A stretch of DNA of 64,000 nt, taken from contig QQUE01000015.1 of NCBI GenBank assembly GCA_008501765.1, positions 1-64,000 of the forward strand. The letters run 5' to 3'. Shown here in pieces: positions 2,388-49,112 of the stretch. Made by a program: the position numbers and the translations under genes. The number at the start of each line of letters is the position of its first letter. The stretch's first letter is position 1. The DNA is from Calditrichota bacterium. Its GTDB lineage: Bacteria; Zhuqueibacterota; Zhuqueibacteria; Zhuqueibacterales; Geothermadaptataceae. The notes beneath the pieces are model-generated. The model saw only the letters and a program-made list of their open reading frames with translations. It did not search any database and had not been told where the DNA came from.

Positions 2388-5300
2388 ATGAAAAAACAAA
2401 TTTTTGCTCTTTTATCAAGCATCTTTTTGATAGCGATTAATAATGCAAATGCCGAAAATAATATCTCCGTTTTAAGTAAAAACAGCGGCGGCCTCATTTT
2501 CCAAATCACCAATGATATTCCTCAACTTGACACGGTTTCGGTGGCTGGGAAGCAATTTCTGAATGTAAACTTCACCAGGCAAACAGGAGTTTATAATTAT
2601 GCAGATCAGGCTTTCCCGGAAATTACCACGATTCTGGCTATTCCCCCAACAGAATCAACGGTTCAAATTTCATTATTAAATGCCAACTGGCAGCCATGCG
2701 GAACAAATTTAGCTCTGAATAATGCGCCCAAAAGCATGCCACCTGCAGAAAAAATTTCAATTGTCAGTTTGGCCGGATCCGGCTGGGTGCGTGATACGCG
2801 TATTGCACAAATCCGCATGATTCCGCTGCAATTTAATAACGATCAATGGTACTACCTTGCCAGTGCAGAAATTCAAGTGCAGTGGCCGGTTTATAATGCA
2901 CCCCCCACTTTATTAAATCAGATACAGAATGACAGCAGCACACTCAATGTGCTCAATAAATCTGATATTGCCCAATTCAGGAAACAACATAAAAGACCGT
3001 TTATAGCAAAAAAATTCCAGCAAACCGGACTCGAATTTATCCGGCTTGAGGTTGAAGACAATGGATTGTACCGTATTTCCGGTGCCATGCTGACACAAGC
3101 AGGATTGTCGATCAGTTCCATCGATCCGGCTCAATTGCGAATGTACAGTGGCGGTGGCCGAGCATTGCCGGAAAGAGTCACAGATCCCCGGGCAGGTGCG
3201 CTCACCGAAATACCGATAATTTTAATGGACAACCAGGACGGCCGCTTTGACAATACCGACGCGATTATCTTTTTTGGGCAATCGGTAAATGACTGGGAAT
3301 ACCTCCCTTCGCAGGACAATTGGGCGCATTATACAAATCCCTATGAAACGAAAAATGTTTACTGGATTTCCTGGGATACAAAATCCAATCCGGCGCTGCG
3401 CCATCAAGCGGAAACGGCGAGCGGCAGTGTGAGCCCTGTTGAGCACGCACTGCAATTGCATGCCATTGAAAATGAATTTAACAAGATATTTCACTCTGGC
3501 CGCAACTGGTACGGCAACCCGCTTTCTGCCGGGGACAGTGAAAATTTCACTTTTTTATTTAAAAACCCACGCCGTTCCAGCGCCCAAATTCGACTTCGCG
3601 TAACTTCAGATAACAGGGGAAATCCCAATACATTAGGGCTACGTCTAAATAATGGAACCGAACGGATTTTTTCATTTAACAGTCCGGGGCTTAATGATGA
3701 AGCCTACATCAATATTGGTTCGATCATTCCATATTATGATCAATTTGAGACTGAAACACCTGGTAACAATACACTGCAAATACAATATAAAAGCACGACG
3801 GGCAATGCCAAAACCTACGTGGACTGGATCGAACTCATCGTTGATGATTCTTTACAAGCCCAGAACGGCGAGCTCAGTTTTGCCACCCGTTCGTCCAATG
3901 AAATGCGATCGTTTTCAATGGTTGATTTCAGCAGCGAACCAGTGGTATTGGAGATTTCAAATCCGACGGCGCCCCGGCAGCTTTCAGTTCAACAGCAAGG
4001 CTCAGCCTGGCAGTTCACCGATGCTCTAATCGATACGACAGGCCGACGCTATTTCGCCGCAACTCAGCTCAAAGAACCAACAAATCTGGCAAAATATACT
4101 TTTTCAAGTTTGAGGGACAGCGGAAACCGGGCAGATATGATTATCGTTGTTCCTGAGATTTTTAAGGCGGCCGGGAATCGGCTGGCAGAGCATAAACGCA
4201 GCTTTCGTGGGATGGAAGTTGAAGTGGTTGATATCAATAAAATTATCAATGAATTTGGTTGGGGACTTAATGACCCGACTGCCCTGCGTGATTTTATCGC
4301 TTACGCCTATCATAATTGGCAAATACCACCACGTTACATTGTCCTGCTGGGCGATGGGACTTACGATTATAAAAACATATCATCCGCCGGCGCCGATAAT
4401 CACCTCATCACATTTCAGACAACTGAATCCGCTGAGCTCAGCAATCGCAACATTGAAGCCTACTATGTTTATGTGTCCGGCGATGATCGATTGATGGATT
4501 TGGCAATCGGGCGCATGCCGGTACAAACTGTTGCTGAAGCTGATTTATTTGTGGATAAAATAATTCAGTACGAGGCCAATCCGCAATTTGGTGTCTGGCG
4601 CAACAAAGTCACCATGGTGGCCGACGATGAATACGTTAGCAACGGCACCGCAACACAGGTTGACCAAAGGCTGCACACACCTCAGGCTGAGGGATTAATG
4701 CAAAATGATATTCCGGATTATCTTATTCAGCAAAAAATCTACCTGATGAATTACCGCGCCATTCGCAATTCAGCCGTACTCGGTATCCGCAAACCGGATG
4801 CACAAAATGCCTTGATAAATGCAATAAATTCCGGTTCACTTATTATTAATTATGTTGGCCACGGCAATCCAACCGTGTGGGCGCACGAGCGAATTTTTGT
4901 GCAAAATGAAGATATCGCCAAAATTGAAAACGGGGCAAAACAGGCATTTTATATAGCAGCAACGTGTGATTTTGGCCGCTTTGATGATCCCCGCCGTCAG
5001 AGTTTCACCGAAGATTTATTGCACATGGATAACGGTGGCGCCATCAGTTTTCTGACCTCAAGCAGAGTTGTTTTCTCAACCTCAAACGCGCAAATAAACA
5101 GCCAGTTCTTCAAACAATTATTTGCAGATGGTCAAAATTTACAAACGGTCGGCGATGCGCTCATGAATGCCCGCCTGTACACAAATAATATCACGAACGA
5201 CGAAAAATATACCATTATCGGTGATCCATCCCTCATTTTAGCTGTGCCCACTTCCATTGCACGGATTGGTGCCGTGAATCCTGACACCTTGCTCTCACTC

Positions 5301-6296
5301 AGCACGACTTCTGTAACCGGTGATCTCTTTCTCGGCACCGGCGAACGCATAACCACGCCCGGGCAAGTCGACGTCCTCGTTTACGATGACGATCGTGCAG
5401 TAAATTATATTTCGAACATGAATATAACAACCAGCTATACCATGCCGGGCAATATCATGTTTCGTGGCCGCGGCAGCGTTGAGAATGGCAAATTTGACCT
5501 CAATTTTATCGTGCCGAAAGACATCACTTACGGCGGCAACAACGCCAGCATTAATGTTTATGGCACCGGTGAAAATTGGGAGGCTGCCGGCTCGGTCGCT
5601 AACCTGCCAATCAGCCTGAAATCAGCTGTTTTACTTGATAATGAAGGGCCGGAAATCGACATTAATTTTTCCGGGCGGGAAACGTTCAGCAACGGCGATC
5701 CGGTACCAGCCAATGCCATGCTTTCGGCCACATTGCGCGACGAGATTTCCGGAATAAACGTCACCAGTGAAATTGGTCACAAAATAACGCTTACAATTGA
5801 CGGCGATACTGAAAACCTGTACGATTTAACCCAGGATTTTATCTATTTTGAAAACGATTACCTTGCAGGAAAAGTCGTCACCCAATTGCCGGAGTTGGAG
5901 GTCGGATTTCATGCAGCAGAGTTGAAAGTGTGGGATAATTCCAATAATTCATCAAAGTTAACTTTTGATTTTCAAATAACCGAGGCGGGTGAATTGGTTT
6001 TGCGTGAAGTATTGAATTACCCCAACCCTTTTCGTGAAAATACGACATTCACATTCCTATTAAATAATGATGCAGAAATTGATGTGTCAATTTACACAGT
6101 TTCCGGCAGAAAAATTCGCAAACTCGAAGGGATTACAGGAATTCCGGGATACAATGAAATTTTCTGGGATGGCCGTGACGCTGAGGGAGATCAATTAGCC
6201 AATGGTATTTATTTATACCGAATTCAGGCGAAAGCGGAAATCGATAACAAAACACAAAAAACAGAGTTTATCGGCAAAGCTGCGTTAAATTATTGA
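2388..6296 (+). CDS. porU: PorU-like gingipain-family (C25) cysteine peptidase of the type IX secretion system
   Basis: PorU is the surface sortase of the T9SS: it removes the C-terminal sorting domain of secreted cargo and attaches the cargo to the outer surface. The 1302-aa product has a signal peptide (MKKQIFALLSSIFLIAINNANA) and a long N-terminal region ahead of a C25 peptidase core. The catalytic His is His825 (YVGHGNPTVWAHE) and the catalytic Cys is Cys860 (AATCDFGRFDDP). A C-terminal region starting NYPNPFRENTTF resembles the T9SS sorting domain, which PorU itself retains. The full-length size and domain order suit PorU better than a secreted gingipain, but no porV neighbour is present to confirm. 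Three likely substrates end in sorting domains elsewhere in this window (29684, 36378 and 40698). No ribosome-binding site is apparent. Confidence 0.88.
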   Translation: MKKQIFALLSSIFLIAINNANAENNISVLSKNSGGLIFQITNDIPQLDTVSVAGKQFLNVNFTRQTGVYNYADQAFPEITTILAIPPTESTVQISLLNANWQPCGTNLALNNAPKSMPPAEKISIVSLAGSGWVRDTRIAQIRMIPLQFNNDQWYYLASAEIQVQWPVYNAPPTLLNQIQNDSSTLNVLNKSDIAQFRKQHKRPFIAKKFQQTGLEFIRLEVEDNGLYRISGAMLTQAGLSISSIDPAQLRMYSGGGRALPERVTDPRAGALTEIPIILMDNQDGRFDNTDAIIFFGQSVNDWEYLPSQDNWAHYTNPYETKNVYWISWDTKSNPALRHQAETASGSVSPVEHALQLHAIENEFNKIFHSGRNWYGNPLSAGDSENFTFLFKNPRRSSAQIRLRVTSDNRGNPNTLGLRLNNGTERIFSFNSPGLNDEAYINIGSIIPYYDQFETETPGNNTLQIQYKSTTGNAKTYVDWIELIVDDSLQAQNGELSFATRSSNEMRSFSMVDFSSEPVVLEISNPTAPRQLSVQQQGSAWQFTDALIDTTGRRYFAATQLKEPTNLAKYTFSSLRDSGNRADMIIVVPEIFKAAGNRLAEHKRSFRGMEVEVVDINKIINEFGWGLNDPTALRDFIAYAYHNWQIPPRYIVLLGDGTYDYKNISSAGADNHLITFQTTESAELSNRNIEAYYVYVSGDDRLMDLAIGRMPVQTVAEADLFVDKIIQYEANPQFGVWRNKVTMVADDEYVSNGTATQVDQRLHTPQAEGLMQNDIPDYLIQQKIYLMNYRAIRNSAVLGIRKPDAQNALINAINSGSLIINYVGHGNPTVWAHERIFVQNEDIAKIENGAKQAFYIAATCDFGRFDDPRRQSFTEDLLHMDNGGAISFLTSSRVVFSTSNAQINSQFFKQLFADGQNLQTVGDALMNARLYTNNITNDEKYTIIGDPSLILAVPTSIARIGAVNPDTLLSLSTTSVTGDLFLGTGERITTPGQVDVLVYDDDRAVNYISNMNITTSYTMPGNIMFRGRGSVENGKFDLNFIVPKDITYGGNNASINVYGTGENWEAAGSVANLPISLKSAVLLDNEGPEIDINFSGRETFSNGDPVPANAMLSATLRDEISGINVTSEIGHKITLTIDGDTENLYDLTQDFIYFENDYLAGKVVTQLPELEVGFHAAELKVWDNSNNSSKLTFDFQITEAGELVLREVLNYPNPFRENTTFTFLLNNDAEIDVSIYTVSGRKIRKLEGITGIPGYNEIFWDGRDAEGDQLANGIYLYRIQAKAEIDNKTQKTEFIGKAALNY

Positions 6297-43194: not shown

Positions 43195-43227
43195 AGGTGC
43201 CAGGCACTTTTGAAGTGCCTGGCACCT
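43195..43227. repeat. Perfect 15-bp hairpin, GTGCC palindrome copy A
   Basis: AGGTGCCAGGCACTT (43195-43209), loop TTG, then AAGTGCCTGGCACCT (43213-43227). It fills the 41-bp gap between convergent genes and may terminate or stabilise both transcripts, although a T-run is missing. It is almost identical to copy B at 44824-44856. Confidence 0.85.
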
Positions 43228-43231
43228 GAGA

Positions 43232-44710
43232 CTATTTCCGGCTGGCTGCAATTCGGGCATATTTTTTCGCACGTGGCAAACTGTGGCGGGCGTTTTCATA
43301 TTTTGGATCGATGGACAGGCATTTTTCCCACGCATCCGCCGCCTGCTGCCACTGCCGCAATTTCCAATGACAGAGACCGAAGTTGTACCACGCGCTGGTA
43401 TTTTCCGGCTCGCGGGTGATTATCCACTGAAAATCTTTCGAAGCACGGGGATATTCTTTGAGTTTGATCAAACACAGGGCTCGATTCTGCACATAGGTCA
43501 CATTGCTCGAATCAACTCCAATTGCATGAGTAAAATCATCAACAGCTGCCGCGTAATTTTGCAGATTTAAGTGGCACATGGCCCGTTTAAAATAGGCATG
43601 ATCCGAAACGCTGCTGGCAATGGCCGCATTAAATTCAGGAATGGCCGATTCATATTTCTGTTGCTGCATGAGAGCGACACCCCAATAATAATGCAGTTGC
43701 TGAAAAGCCGGATCGATTCTGGCAGTAATACTCAAATCACGCAAAGCGGATTCCGGATTGTGGCTGGAAAGATAGCAGACCGCCCGGTTAAAATGGGCCG
43801 TGGCATTTTGCGGATCGAGAGCGATTATTTGCGAATAGAGTTCGAGTTTCTTTTGCAGATCACTACTTTCCGCTGCCTCCCGAAACAAGCCGGTCAATTG
43901 AGCGATAAACCGCTCGTACTCCGTGTCTATTTTCGGACTGGTTAAATACAATTGCTCCGGCTCGACCGGCTTGTATTTTGTCTTTTGCTTGCGAATTCTT
44001 TTTATGACTGCTATCACATATTTATCGTTTGCTGAGATTTTTTTCTGCTTATCTAAAAAAGCAGTAATGGCTTTGCGCGGTACCCTCGCCCCCAGCGGAC
44101 TGCGCTGAATCTTTTTATTGCCTTTTTCCGAATTGCGCCAATCGATGCTCGCCAGCATCTTTTCAATGGCCTGCCAGCACCGGTGTTTATTTTGTGCCGT
44201 TTCAGCACTGGCGAAATACAAAACTTGCAGCAGCAACTCCCCTTTTAACAAGCCATATTCATTATTATCAACCGTAAACTTTAGCATATTTTGCAGCCGG
44301 TCATCATTGCCCAGATTATAATATTTTTGATACAGCCTGGTTTGTGCTGCATTGAGATAGTGGAATTGAAATTCAAGAAAGGAAATTTTCACTTGAAAAT
44401 CGGCATTGGACTGGATACTTCTTTTTAATCGTTTATCAAAAACCAACGAGGAATTGATTTTCTTTGACAGTTGAATGAAACCAATATCTTCAGGAACGGT
44501 GAAGCGCAAAGTGGAAATGCTATCCCAAAATACGGTCTCCAAAAAATCAGAGTTCTGAGAACTAGAATCGCCCAAAACAGCAACGAGTTGATCCTCAATT
44601 TCAAAGGCGTTGGCGGAATTTTGGTGAAAAACAGGCTGCTGCTGTGTTGAGGCGCACGAACTGGTGAGAATAGCAAAAATGAACAGGGGAACCCGTTTTA
44701 TAGTCTGCAT
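43232..44710 (-). CDS. TPR-repeat lipoprotein
   Basis: A 492-aa protein with a lipoprotein signal peptide (FIFAILTSSC, Cys19). The N-terminal half has no recognised domain. From about residue 275 to the end there are about six tetratricopeptide repeats (for example ATAHFNRAVCYLSSHNPESA, then FKRAMCHLNLQNYAAAVDD). TPR lipoproteins scaffold envelope protein complexes; the partner is unknown. The gene stands alone, bracketed by the two hairpin repeats at 43195 and 44824. Confidence 0.8.
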   Translation of the reverse strand: MQTIKRVPLFIFAILTSSCASTQQQPVFHQNSANAFEIEDQLVAVLGDSSSQNSDFLETVFWDSISTLRFTVPEDIGFIQLSKKINSSLVFDKRLKRSIQSNADFQVKISFLEFQFHYLNAAQTRLYQKYYNLGNDDRLQNMLKFTVDNNEYGLLKGELLLQVLYFASAETAQNKHRCWQAIEKMLASIDWRNSEKGNKKIQRSPLGARVPRKAITAFLDKQKKISANDKYVIAVIKRIRKQKTKYKPVEPEQLYLTSPKIDTEYERFIAQLTGLFREAAESSDLQKKLELYSQIIALDPQNATAHFNRAVCYLSSHNPESALRDLSITARIDPAFQQLHYYWGVALMQQQKYESAIPEFNAAIASSVSDHAYFKRAMCHLNLQNYAAAVDDFTHAIGVDSSNVTYVQNRALCLIKLKEYPRASKDFQWIITREPENTSAWYNFGLCHWKLRQWQQAADAWEKCLSIDPKYENARHSLPRAKKYARIAASRK

Positions 44711-44823
44711 AGGCCAGTCCCATGATTTTGTAGGATATTGATATTTTATTGGATCAGACTATGGTAAAATGCACGCGATCGGCATTGGTTTCAATTTAAT
44801 GGTACAAGCCGAGGTAAAATTTA

Positions 44824-44856
44824 AAGTGCCAGGCACTTTGGAAGTGCCTGGCACTT
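44824..44856. repeat. Perfect 15-bp hairpin, GTGCC palindrome copy B
   Basis: AAGTGCCAGGCACTT (44824-44838), loop TGG, then AAGTGCCTGGCACTT (44842-44856). Compared with copy A the second base pair changes from G-C to A-T on both arms, so pairing is kept. It lies 114 nt upstream of the TPR lipoprotein start. Confidence 0.85.
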
Positions 44857-45034
44857 GGACTGATCTTAAGAAGACTGATGCAGTCATGCATAAAAACATA
44901 CTTATATGATAGAAAAATTGCACGTTTCCATGCTCTGCCTGGAAAGCGCATTTCTCAGTGCGCCGCGTCCATTTTTTTAAGTGAAGATGAAGAATAACGA
45001 ATAGGTTGCGAGCATCCCGAAAAACGTTAAATAA

Positions 45035-45917
45035 GATGGAATCGCTCGATGTGAGCAAGAGTTATTGATAACATCGCAAAAGCAGCGATCTTATCAAATG
45101 GCATGGCGCTGCAATCACTCAAAGTGATGGAAGCGCTCAATTTTTGGGAGATTTATTGATAACATCGCAAAAGCAGCGATCTTATCAAATGGCACGGCGA
45201 TGCAATCACTCAAAGTGATGGAATCGCTCGATGTGAGCAAGAGTTATTGATAACATCGCAAAAGCAGCGGTCTTATCAAATGGCACGGCGATGCAATCAC
45301 TCAAAGTGATGGAATCGCTCGATGTGAGAAAGAGTTATTGATAACATCGCAAAAGCAGCGATCTTATCAAATGGCACGGCGATGCAATCACTCAAAGTGA
45401 TGGAATCGCTCAATTTGCGCGAGAGTTATTGATAACATCGCAAAAGCAGCGATCTTATCAAATGGCATGGCGCTGCAATCACTCAAAGTGATGGAATCGC
45501 TCGATGTGAGAAAGAGTTATTGATAACATCGCAAAAGCAGCGATCTTATCAAATGGCACGGCGATGCAATCACTTAATGTGATGGAAGCGCTCAATTTGC
45601 GCGAGAGTTATTGATAACATCGCAAAAGCAGCGATCTTATCAAATGGCGCTGCGATGCAATCACTCAAAGTGATGGAATCGCTCAATGTGCGCGAGAGTT
45701 ATTGATAACATCGCAAAAGCAGCGATCTTATCAAATGGCATGGCGATGCAATCACTTAATGTGATGGAATCGTTCGATTTGTGGGAGATTTATTGATAAC
45801 ATCGCAAAAGCAGCGATCTTATCAAATGGCATGGCGATGCAATCACTCAAAGTGATGGAATCGCTCAATTTGCGCGAGAGTTATTGATAACATCGCAAAA
45901 GCAGCGATCTTATCAAA
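45035..45917. repeat. Tandem array of nine 91-bp structured units (plus partial ends)
   Basis: Units begin at 45062, 45153, 45244, 45335, 45426, 45517, 45608, 45699 and 45790, each exactly 91 bp. A 27-bp partial copy precedes the first, and a 37-bp partial copy (45881-45917) follows the last. Each unit has a hairpin at offsets 4-16/24-36 (TTGATAACATCGC with GCGATCTTATCAA, one mismatch, loop AAAAGCA) and a second at offsets 45-49/71-75 with inner stem 53-58/62-67 (ATCACT/AGTGAT). The final 14 bases of the unit vary among about six related versions. The array ends 3 nt after the carB stop codon. Since 91 is not divisible by three, it cannot encode a continuous repeat protein. Confidence 0.95.
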
Positions 45918-45920
45918 GTA

Positions 45921-48900
45921 CTATTCCCAGTATTCATCCCAGCTTTTGATATGGAGCTCGTCGTCTGATTTCATCAGCACAGCTTCGAGAAAGCGGCGGG
46001 CGAGGCGGCCCTCGGTGATTAGTGGCACGGCAAAATCCACGGCCTTGCGGCGGATGATATAGTCGTTGGTGAGCTCTTCTTCCTGGAAATTTTTCGGGAT
46101 ATTGATTACCAGATCAATTTTTCCTTCGCTGATATAATCGGCAGCATTGGGTTTCTTTTCTTTTAAAGGCCAGTGCAGCGTTTCGGCTTCGATGTCGTAT
46201 TGCTGCAGAAAGCGCACGGTGCCACCCGTTGCATAAAGTTTGATCCCCTTCGCATTAAGTTTACGCGCAACTGAAATAAAGTCCGGTTTTTGCTCCAATG
46301 GCCCTGCTGAGAGCAGCACCGATTTGATCTGTTTTTTAAATCCCACTGACAGCATGGCTTTTAAAAAGGCTTCCTGAAAATCATCGCCGAGACAGGCAAC
46401 TTCACCGGTTGAACTCATTTCCACGCCTAAGGTCGGATCAGCGCCGAGCAGGCGGGTAAACGAGAAGTGCGGCGCTTTCACACCAACGTATTCCAAGTCC
46501 ATGTAGGAGCGCTCCACCGGTGCCACTTCCTCGCCCAAAATCACCCGTGTGGCAATGTCGATGAAGTTGACGTTATAAACTTTAGAGACAAACGGAAAAC
46601 TGCGCGACGCCCGCAAATTGCATTCGATCACTTTCACTTTGTTATCGCGGGCGATAAATTGCATGTTGAACGGTCCGGTGATATGCAATGCTTTGGCTAT
46701 TTTCCGGGCGCTGACGCGAATTTGCCGCAGGGTTTCGATAAATGTGCGCTGCGGTGGCAAAACCAGGGTTGCATCGCCGGAATGCACGCCGGCATTTTCG
46801 ACGTGTTCGGAAATAGCATGGCACACCAGCTCGCCGTCTTTGGCGACGCCGTCAAATTCGATCTCTTTGGCATTTTCGATGAATTTACTGATGACCACCG
46901 GATGTTCCTGGGAAATATCCACGGCTTTGCTGAGAAACTTTTCCAGCTCACGGTCGTTGGAAGCCACCGCCATCGCGGAACCGCTCAAAACGTAGGATGG
47001 GCGGATGAGCACAGGGTATTCTACTTTTTCTGCAAAGCTTTTTGCCTCCGCCATCGAGCTTAATTCACTCCATTGCGGCTGATCAACACCAAGGGTGTCG
47101 AGCAGGCTGGAAAATTTATGTCGATCCTCTGCCTGGTCAATTTTTTTCGGGCTGGTGCCGAGTACACGCATGCCTGCCTCGTGAAATTTGAGCGCTAGAT
47201 TGTTGGGCGTTTGCCCGCCCATGGCGATAAGAATCCCGAGCGGGTTTTCTTTTTCGTAAATGTCGGCCACCGTTTCAAAGGTCAATTCTTCAAAATACAG
47301 GCGGTCACATTCATCGTAATCCGTGCTAACGGTCTCCGGATTATAATTTATCATCACCGTATTGTAGCCCATTTTTTTCAGCGTCATCACCGCATTGACG
47401 CAGCACCAGTCAAATTCCACCGAAGAGCCGATGCGATAAACGCCGGAACCCAGCACGATCACGGTTTTTTTCTGGCTGTCTCTGATGTCATTTTCTTCGC
47501 CATTGTAAGTCAGATAGAGAAAATTTGTGCGTGCCGGATATTCTGCAGCCAGCGTATCGATTTGTTTTACAACCGGTGCAATGCCATAATTTTTGCGCAT
47601 GGCGGCTACTTCACGGGCGCCAACATGCAGCATATCGGCGATTTGAATATCGGAAAAACCGACCTGTTTCGCGGCCAGCAAAGCGCTCTTCGGACAAATT
47701 CCCTTCGCGTAAACTTCAAGTTTTTCGCCGGTGTCGAACATATTTTTAATTTTATAGAGAAACCAGCGGTCGATGTGCGTCAGTGCATGAATTTCATTGA
47801 CGGACATCCCCATTTTCAGAGCAGCGGGGATGGCAAAAACCCGTTCGTCGGTGGGATTTTTCAGCTCTGATTCAATATCATCGAAGGTGATGTGTTCGTT
47901 TCCAATCAATCCGTCAACACCGATTTCCAGCATGCGCAGCGCCTTTTGCAGCGTCTCTTCAAAATTGCGCCCGATGGCCATTACCTCGCCCACCGATTTC
48001 ATGCTGGAGCCAATTTGCTTGGAAACCATACGAAATTTTTTCAGATCCCAACGGGGAATTTTCACCACGATATAATCCAGCGCCGGTTCAAAACAGGCCA
48101 TTGTCGTCTGCGTAACCGCGTTTTTCAAATCGACAAGACTGTGTCCAAGCGCTAATTTTGCAGCGATAAAAGCCAGCGGATATCCCGTCGCTTTGGAGGC
48201 AAGGGCGGAACTGCGGGAGAGGCGGGCATTGACTTCTATCACACGGTAATCATCCGATTTGGCGTCGAGTGCGTACTGAATATTGCATTCCCCGACGATG
48301 CCGAGATGGCGAATCACCCGGATAGCGATTTCACGCAGTTTGTGGTATTCGTGGTTGCTCAAAGTCTGGCTCGGAGCGACAACGATACTCTCGCCGGTGT
48401 GAATGCCCATGGGATCAAAATTTTCCATGTTGCATACGGTGATGCAATTGTCACAGCTATCGCGCATGACTTCGTACTCGACTTCCTTCCAGCCGTGCAG
48501 GTATTCTTCGACGAGAATTTGATTTGTGTAGGCAAATCCTTTCGATGCCAATTCGCGAACTTCTTCTTCGCTTTGGCATAATCCCGAACCCAATCCACCC
48601 AATGCATATGCGATGCGAATCATCACCGGATAGCCGATTTTTTCAGCGACTTCGACGGCAGCTTCAACACTTTCCACAGCGACGCTGCGAGGTACCTTTA
48701 CATCGATTTCTGCAAGTTTCTCGGCGAAAAGCTGGCGATCCTCTGTTTCTTCGATGACGGAAACTTGGGTGCCAAGTACAGCGATTTTATATTTTTCGAA
48801 AACTTTATTTTTCGCTAACTCGACACCGCAATTCAACGCAGTTTGCCCGCCAAATCCCAATAAAATTCCGTCGGGTTTTTCCTTCTCAATGATTTTTTCG

Positions 48901-49112
48901 ACGAAATAGGGCGTGACCGGTAGAAAATAAATTTTATCCGCCAAATGCTCAGAAGTCTGAATAGTTGCGATATTTGGATTTATCAGAACGGTTGCGATGC
49001 CTTCTTCTTTCAGCGCTTTTATTGCCTGGCTACCGGAATAGTCAAATTCACCGGCTTCGCCAATTTTTAGCGCCGAACTCCCGAGGATGACAACTTTTTT
49101 TATTGTTTGCAT
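45921..49112 (-). CDS. carB: Carbamoyl-phosphate synthase large subunit
   Basis: Makes carbamoyl phosphate from ammonia, bicarbonate and two ATP for pyrimidine and arginine synthesis. The 1063 aa include two carbamoyl-phosphate synthase halves, each with an ATP-grasp domain; both begin with a matching dinucleotide-like pattern (VVILGSSALKIGEAGEFDYS and TVIVLGSGVYRIGSSVEFDW). A C-terminal MGS-like allosteric domain follows (KLYATGGTVRFLQQYD). Length is normal and no key segment is missing. It follows carA by 170 nt on the same strand. The tandem array begins immediately after its TAG stop codon. Confidence 0.97.
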   Translation of the reverse strand: MQTIKKVVILGSSALKIGEAGEFDYSGSQAIKALKEEGIATVLINPNIATIQTSEHLADKIYFLPVTPYFVEKIIEKEKPDGILLGFGGQTALNCGVELAKNKVFEKYKIAVLGTQVSVIEETEDRQLFAEKLAEIDVKVPRSVAVESVEAAVEVAEKIGYPVMIRIAYALGGLGSGLCQSEEEVRELASKGFAYTNQILVEEYLHGWKEVEYEVMRDSCDNCITVCNMENFDPMGIHTGESIVVAPSQTLSNHEYHKLREIAIRVIRHLGIVGECNIQYALDAKSDDYRVIEVNARLSRSSALASKATGYPLAFIAAKLALGHSLVDLKNAVTQTTMACFEPALDYIVVKIPRWDLKKFRMVSKQIGSSMKSVGEVMAIGRNFEETLQKALRMLEIGVDGLIGNEHITFDDIESELKNPTDERVFAIPAALKMGMSVNEIHALTHIDRWFLYKIKNMFDTGEKLEVYAKGICPKSALLAAKQVGFSDIQIADMLHVGAREVAAMRKNYGIAPVVKQIDTLAAEYPARTNFLYLTYNGEENDIRDSQKKTVIVLGSGVYRIGSSVEFDWCCVNAVMTLKKMGYNTVMINYNPETVSTDYDECDRLYFEELTFETVADIYEKENPLGILIAMGGQTPNNLALKFHEAGMRVLGTSPKKIDQAEDRHKFSSLLDTLGVDQPQWSELSSMAEAKSFAEKVEYPVLIRPSYVLSGSAMAVASNDRELEKFLSKAVDISQEHPVVISKFIENAKEIEFDGVAKDGELVCHAISEHVENAGVHSGDATLVLPPQRTFIETLRQIRVSARKIAKALHITGPFNMQFIARDNKVKVIECNLRASRSFPFVSKVYNVNFIDIATRVILGEEVAPVERSYMDLEYVGVKAPHFSFTRLLGADPTLGVEMSSTGEVACLGDDFQEAFLKAMLSVGFKKQIKSVLLSAGPLEQKPDFISVARKLNAKGIKLYATGGTVRFLQQYDIEAETLHWPLKEKKPNAADYISEGKIDLVINIPKNFQEEELTNDYIIRRKAVDFAVPLITEGRLARRFLEAVLMKSDDELHIKSWDEYWE

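Follow-up and report, generated by a model that had tools for sequence, protein, structure and literature searches.

The closest described counterparts of the array analysed here are the REP palindromes of E. coli and their clusters. In BIME-2 and atypical BIMEs, two different palindromes alternate in tandem, the inter-REP segments are unique to each cluster, and the E. coli RAYT gene has BIME-2 on both sides (PMC2817692); REP clusters have also been described as dimers reiterated together with their flanking DNA (PMC3733652). In Bacteroidetes, PMC6006769 presents the REPtrons of TnpA_REP subclass 2.6 (Bertels group 5) as RAYTs that carry NHxH and YIHxNP motifs and lie between atypical hairpins, which lack GT[AG]G and have copies elsewhere in the genome. 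REPINs, in which a short spacer separates two REPs in inverted orientation, are miniature two-hairpin derivatives that a RAYT could mobilize in trans. REPs may also act on messages: work cited in PMC12306157 reports ribosome stalling and lower translation for E. coli REPs lying directly past the stop codon (<16 nt), and puts the share of REPs near stops at anything from 11% (446/4,072) to about half (260/496). Among open papers, no stop-adjacent palindromes with tandem repeats were found for Bacteroidetes.

The array that follows carB in the window (the whole stretch of 64,000 nucleotides under analysis, from a Calditrichota bacterium) is a tandem cluster, recently grown, of a REP-like family, best read as an atypical REP/BIME array and not as a new class. 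The initial annotation could match it to no class it could name; that view gives way to REP-type palindromes, a BIME-like tandem cluster and a RAYT inside a sister array. There are a number of differences from the described systems: (i), compared with BIME-2, the two hairpins (H1 and H2) have no GTAG/GTGG tag, their stems are broken by conserved triplets, arrays run to as many as 14 copies, and H1 and H2 are not clearly inverted copies of one palindrome (H1 and the reverse complement of H2, rcH2, partly share a GCGAT-NNN-ATCGC pattern, with different triplets and loop); (ii), compared with subclass 2.6, the W motif of the RAYT reads LFQ, not WQ, and tandem two-hairpin arrays are not described there, as far as the accessible part of PMC6006769 goes; (iii), compared with REPINs, two different palindromes are arranged in tandem with locus-specific linkers; (iv), compared with the stop-near REPs of E. 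coli, nearly every H1 site is involved, in a single orientation. H1 and H2 are not canonical REPs, because neither GTAG/GTGG nor CGTC occurs within 6 nt on either side of any of the 26 H1 sites. Motif comparison makes atypical REPs of subclass 2.6 the apparent best fit.

The carB array and its hairpin family

The single array called by TRF (Table 1) shows 91% matches and 0% indels, which bears out the claim that nine units keep exactly 91 bp each. On the plus strand a unit reads H1 (33 nt), 8 nt, H2 (31 nt) and a 19-nt linker. Just as first described, the array lies three bases (45918-45920) from the carB stop codon (45921-45923) and closes on a partial unit at the end of a hairpin. Since carB is on the minus strand and is transcribed into the array, a point that escaped the initial annotation, its mRNA would carry the reverse complements, rcH1 first and then rcH2. 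Such a read-through transcript, for which about nineteen hairpins had been forecast, contains 19 complete ones in the hairpin scan (10 H1 and 9 H2) and has a folding z of -6.5. This density, 19 per 0.9 kb, is far above chance because scanning 1 Mb of Markov sequence in the same way yielded 29 matches in total. Variation is uneven along the unit, with 1/33 varying columns in H1 and 7/19 in the linker (Fisher p = 0.002), and the variants form a mosaic, common to non-neighbouring units, which suggests exchange between units. CRISPR arrays have short repeats and unique spacers; here, whole 91-bp units are about 91% alike. The unit has no match among plasmid and phage sequences, and the proposed Rfam check drew a blank, with no family at or near the gathering threshold across 44500-46500.

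Table 1. Features of the carB array, its surroundings and its sister arrays (C, contig; coordinates without prefix refer to the window)
Feature	Position	Strand	Basis or remark
Tandem array, period 91 bp, 9.7 copies	45035-45917		TRF and hairpin scan
Nine complete 91-mers	45065-45883		
Partial first unit (right half of H2 and linker)	45035-45064	+	
Partial last unit	45884-45917		Ends where the strong hairpin H1 ends
H1, first of ten	45065-45097	+	Hairpin scan; H1 covariance model, 53-59 bits each
Other H1 starts	45156, 45247, 45338, 45429, 45520, 45611, 45702, 45793, 45884		91-bp spacing
H2, first of nine	45106-45136	+	Hairpin scan; H2 covariance model, 51-61 bits each
Other H2 starts	45197, 45288, 45379, 45470, 45561, 45652, 45743, 45834		
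19-nt linker, one per unit	First at 45137-45155	+	Locus-specific; most variable part of the unit
rcH1 met first by the carB transcript	45884-45916	-	4 nt past the carB stop codon
carB, carbamoyl-phosphate synthase large subunit	45921-49112	-	TIGR01369, 1522.9 bits
Separate REP-type palindrome AGTGCCAGGCACTT	44823-44857		Terminator-like on the minus strand; type flanking the C10 RAYT
Sister array, 125-bp period	C16:155.9-158.2 kb		At DUF1207 gene; encloses RAYT
Sister array, 112 bp x 14	C3:411.6-413.1 kb (about L100:7071-8633)		Behind reverse transcriptase gene
Sister array, 124 bp x 10	C3:562.3-563.7 kb		
Sister array, about 185 bp x 3	C3:493.8-494.2 kb		
RAYT ORF, 191 aa, inside the C16 array	L031:2225-2800	Opposite to H1/H2	

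A search of the unit against the genome (a 5.9 Mb draft in 21 contigs, with mechanically predicted ORFs) recovered four further arrays built from the same two hairpins with other linkers. At a cut-off of E<=0.1, the H1 covariance model finds 76 matches, 50 in the five arrays and 26 elsewhere, and the H2 model a similar number of places. In all there are about 30 loci, nearly all intergenic, of which about 25 are single sites. H1 (33-35 nt) and H2 (31 nt) thus fall within the 20-40 nt expected of imperfect REP palindromes and occur as dispersed extragenic copies, modest in number compared with E. coli, and the five arrays are tandem clusters with cluster-specific linkers, as in BIMEs. Period and linker are private to each array, except that C16 and C3:562k have a 50-nt linker in common without a single difference. 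Units can therefore move from one array to another as well, although these two arrays are close to contig ends, where arrays may be collapsed in the draft, and may be neighbours. Given that every array has its own fixed length, the exact 91 bp is best explained by recent duplication of one founding unit, and selection on spacing is not the best explanation.

The covariance modelling suggested at the outset revealed strong covariation of the stems. In one H1 per locus plus one orthologue from a congener (29 sequences), 96.8% of stem cells are paired and both sides have changed in 6/12 pairs. Double changes occupy 27 cells compared with 6.2 in shuffles (0/500 shuffles), a control that keeps relatedness in, so that these counts overstate the number of independent events; sliding the pairing partners abolishes the signal. 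On most of these measures H2 behaves similarly. To judge from these substitution patterns, H1 and H2 are under selection as hairpins. The internal GAG/GTT triplets are also conserved, along with a T-rich loop and a T after the hairpin in 26/26 H1 sites. Triplet pairing is better in the mRNA sense, with G-U and A-U pairs and one G-G mismatch.

In the window, GTGCCAGGCACTT palindromes stand on either side (43195-43227 and 44824-44856) of a TPR gene (43232-44710). The C10 RAYT is flanked by this palindrome, of which the genome holds only four exact paired copies; TPR gene and pair are a possible passenger of a RAYT element, or the palindromes could be terminators. On C3, the 112-bp array sits between a reverse transcriptase gene and cas1-cas2 (L100 = C3:404500-424400), the reverse transcriptase stop codon falls inside its first rcH1, and two CRISPR arrays (about 37-bp repeats) lie a few kb to either side.

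RAYT genes and the history of the arrays

The RAYT of the C16 array was discovered by reading the sequence between the array parts. It matches NCBIfam NF047646 (E 7e-14) with a score of 51.9, under the curated cut-off of 80, and does not reach the Pfam PF01797 profile. A phmmer search pairs it with 4er8 (E. coli TnpA_REP, E 8.5e-4), and this same entry, a RAYT bound to its REP hairpin, is the best PDB match of its predicted fold (pLDDT 87.6, E 3.6e-8). With a conserved HxH and tyrosine motif, the ORF has the HUH motif, the catalytic tyrosine and, in its model, the TnpA_REP fold by which RAYT/TnpA_REP proteins are recognized. It occupies an H1-to-H2 gap, with rcH2 52 nt upstream and rcH1 12 nt downstream, and this is the only locus of the genome where H1/H2 flank a RAYT. 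The other RAYTs of this genome and those of Winogradskyella are each flanked by palindromes of their own, which makes a RAYT with private palindromes the rule in the group. The nearness of one H1 to the C4 RAYT is judged incidental, because palindromes private to the C4 RAYT border it left and right and because this H1 lies 3 nt past the stop of a converging gene.

A RAYT within two-hairpin tandem arrays is seen twice. In another genus of the family (G005), a RAYT 42% identical to the C16 protein is bordered on both sides by 129-bp tandem units (L084:498-790 and 1454-1738), whose two hairpins, with stems ACTCTGCCAGCG and CCTGGCAGGG, are unrelated to H1/H2; this pairing is an independent replicate of the C16 arrangement. 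Viral contigs contain no relative of the C16 RAYT, and a wider contig scan returned only Winogradskyella RAYTs, with other palindromes. In three Winogradskyella species (L097, L098, L099, about 3977-5485) the RAYT frame runs stop-free into a gene that, by eye, we take to be hemF (coproporphyrinogen oxidase), which may be a RAYT-HemF fusion whose linker is REP-encoded.

The 60 relatives searched are essentially devoid of H1 (two weak single matches), and H2-like palindromes occur in 12 genomes with up to 91 matches per genome. This maximum is reached in another family of the class (G048, e.g. L137-L156), where the REP-like palindrome CTGATTCCATCGCTNNNAGCGATGGAATCAG is sequence-related to H2 and shows no stop adjacency. 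In three other genera of the class the H2-like palindromes are dispersed, and 6/38 lie within 15 nt of a stop compared with 7.5% of random positions, so that the class as a whole does not share the stop adjacency. The congener (G001, 97% complete) has a CarB segment with 91% identity, and past its carB stop the sequence is unrelated, with no array; most of the other host genes found there are also without a hairpin. One host gene nevertheless retains H1 in place, with two compensatory changes in the inner stem (L102 vs L117), H2 is retained at two, and two more carry apparent half-elements. At the DUF1207 gene, the site of the 125-bp array in this genome, the congener has one degenerate rcH1, a 51-nt linker and rcH2, and the linkers of the two genomes align almost without gaps (P = 0.02 in linker-only shuffles). 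This single unit supports local array growth from one unit, which would explain the exact, private period of each array; arrays seem to grow in this way.

Stop codons and competing readings

The start of rcH1 falls -7 to +14 nt from a long ORF's stop codon (median 3 nt) at 22/24 H1 loci, and each time rcH1 reads in the same direction as the host gene. Random placement and orientation in the same gaps would give about 1.7 such cases, by a rough null built on ORF-predicted gaps. Three of the five arrays start at a stop likewise (those behind carB, the reverse transcriptase near cas1 and the DUF1207 gene); the C3:562k array has the opposite orientation and lies 150 nt from a stop, and the C3:493k array starts with H2, 14 nt from one. 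The position of rcH1 within 15 nt of the stop, like that of many E. coli REPs, makes an effect on the message likely: by analogy, the carB array would probably alter translation of CarB or the 3' end of its mRNA, and both the modular two-hairpin view of the initial annotation and its idea of an effect at the mRNA 3' end would fit these results. Among the host genes of single H1/H2 sites (at loci L042, L043, L049, L104, L109, L110, L111, L116 and others), an apparent T9SS sorting domain is C-terminal in 12/35 (10 of the 12 checked by HMM), compared with 4/45 window genes (Fisher p = 0.01). Recombination of this C-terminal domain may carry the hairpins along.

We consider it probable that the carB array is a BIME-like cluster of REP-type hairpins tied to a RAYT, in which a founding unit was duplicated at the carB stop and acts on the message. 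The H1/H2 family would be tied to RAYT (TnpA_REP-like) single-strand transposases, by which we infer that the hairpins were moved. A founding H1-linker-H2 unit beside the carB stop would then have been duplicated head to tail, fixing the period at 91 bp, while arrays with private linkers and periods arose at other loci and compensatory changes maintained the pairing of the stems. In the mRNA, a stable hairpin against the edge of the ribosome could slow termination and lower CarB output; alternatively or additionally, rcH1 could be a 3' barrier against exonucleases. The observations behind this reading are the family and its covariation, the RAYT in an array, stop adjacency in a fixed orientation, the empty carB site in the congener and the single ancestral unit. 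Against it, the array on C16 could have been there first and acquired its RAYT by chance.

We regard one alternative as possible, if less than probable: rcH1 (and H2) might be a lineage-specific regulatory RNA of mRNA 3' ends, with an incidental RAYT link and arrays that strengthen the effect. The tight, gene-sense placement at stops would suit such an element, as would the conserved triplets, loop and following T with their better pairing in the mRNA sense. The orthologue with compensatory changes points the same way. Some hairpins have not left their sites after divergence from the congener, which resembles a retained 3' element more than a mobile repeat. In its more specific form, rather doubtful in our view, rcH1 would be a dedicated genus-level, stop-proximal element tuning termination or 3' decay, and carB-type arrays its evolvable amplifiers. 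However, most sites are empty in the congener, the hosts (carbamoyl-phosphate synthase, a sugar kinase, an SDR, a reverse transcriptase, T9SS proteins) share no common pathway, and mobile REPs of E. coli show a similar stop adjacency (PMC12306157).

It is unlikely that the array serves as duplex DNA to bind a protein such as gyrase, IHF or Pol I. This idea borrows from E. coli, where BIMEs/REPs are reported to bind all three (PMC2817692), and a tandem placement past a transcribed gene would suit supercoil control, but the covarying stems and conserved internal triplets point to a folded single strand and not to a fixed duplex site. Also improbable, in our judgement, is a neutral satellite produced by slippage or unequal crossing-over, with meaningless hairpins. 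The initial annotation had proposed that the same unit at unrelated sites, with variable length, no covariation and no expression, would argue for it. The outcome is mixed. The first two signs are indeed present, as hairpins occur at unrelated sites and unit length, like the linker, differs from array to array; the mosaic of variants and the lack of an array at carB in the congener would also fit. The third fails: strong stem covariation over 29 loci renders a plain neutral satellite insufficient, and H1 is nearly invariant while linkers vary, with the same hairpins found singly at stop codons. Neutrality is thus already contradicted for the hairpins, while the carB array itself has likely grown by recombination. 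Finally, stacked Rho-independent terminators after carB are very improbable, since, despite hairpins directly past the stop codon, no T run follows rcH1 and no terminator-like site is called within the array on either strand, the only calls being the separate palindrome at 44824-44856 and two weak sites further down.

Read as a REP/BIME cluster, a formerly unexplained structured array now joins the REP/BIME world, and does so in a lineage with GTAG-less REPs. At one site the congener seems to preserve the state that preceded array expansion, making BIME growth from a single unit traceable. Strict stop adjacency, one orientation and compensatory orthologues together provide a natural test of whether stop-near REPs owe their place to selection for a translational effect or to mere tolerance. 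By their placement near stops, and by analogy with E. coli, H1/H2 could damp or stabilise the messages of their host genes.
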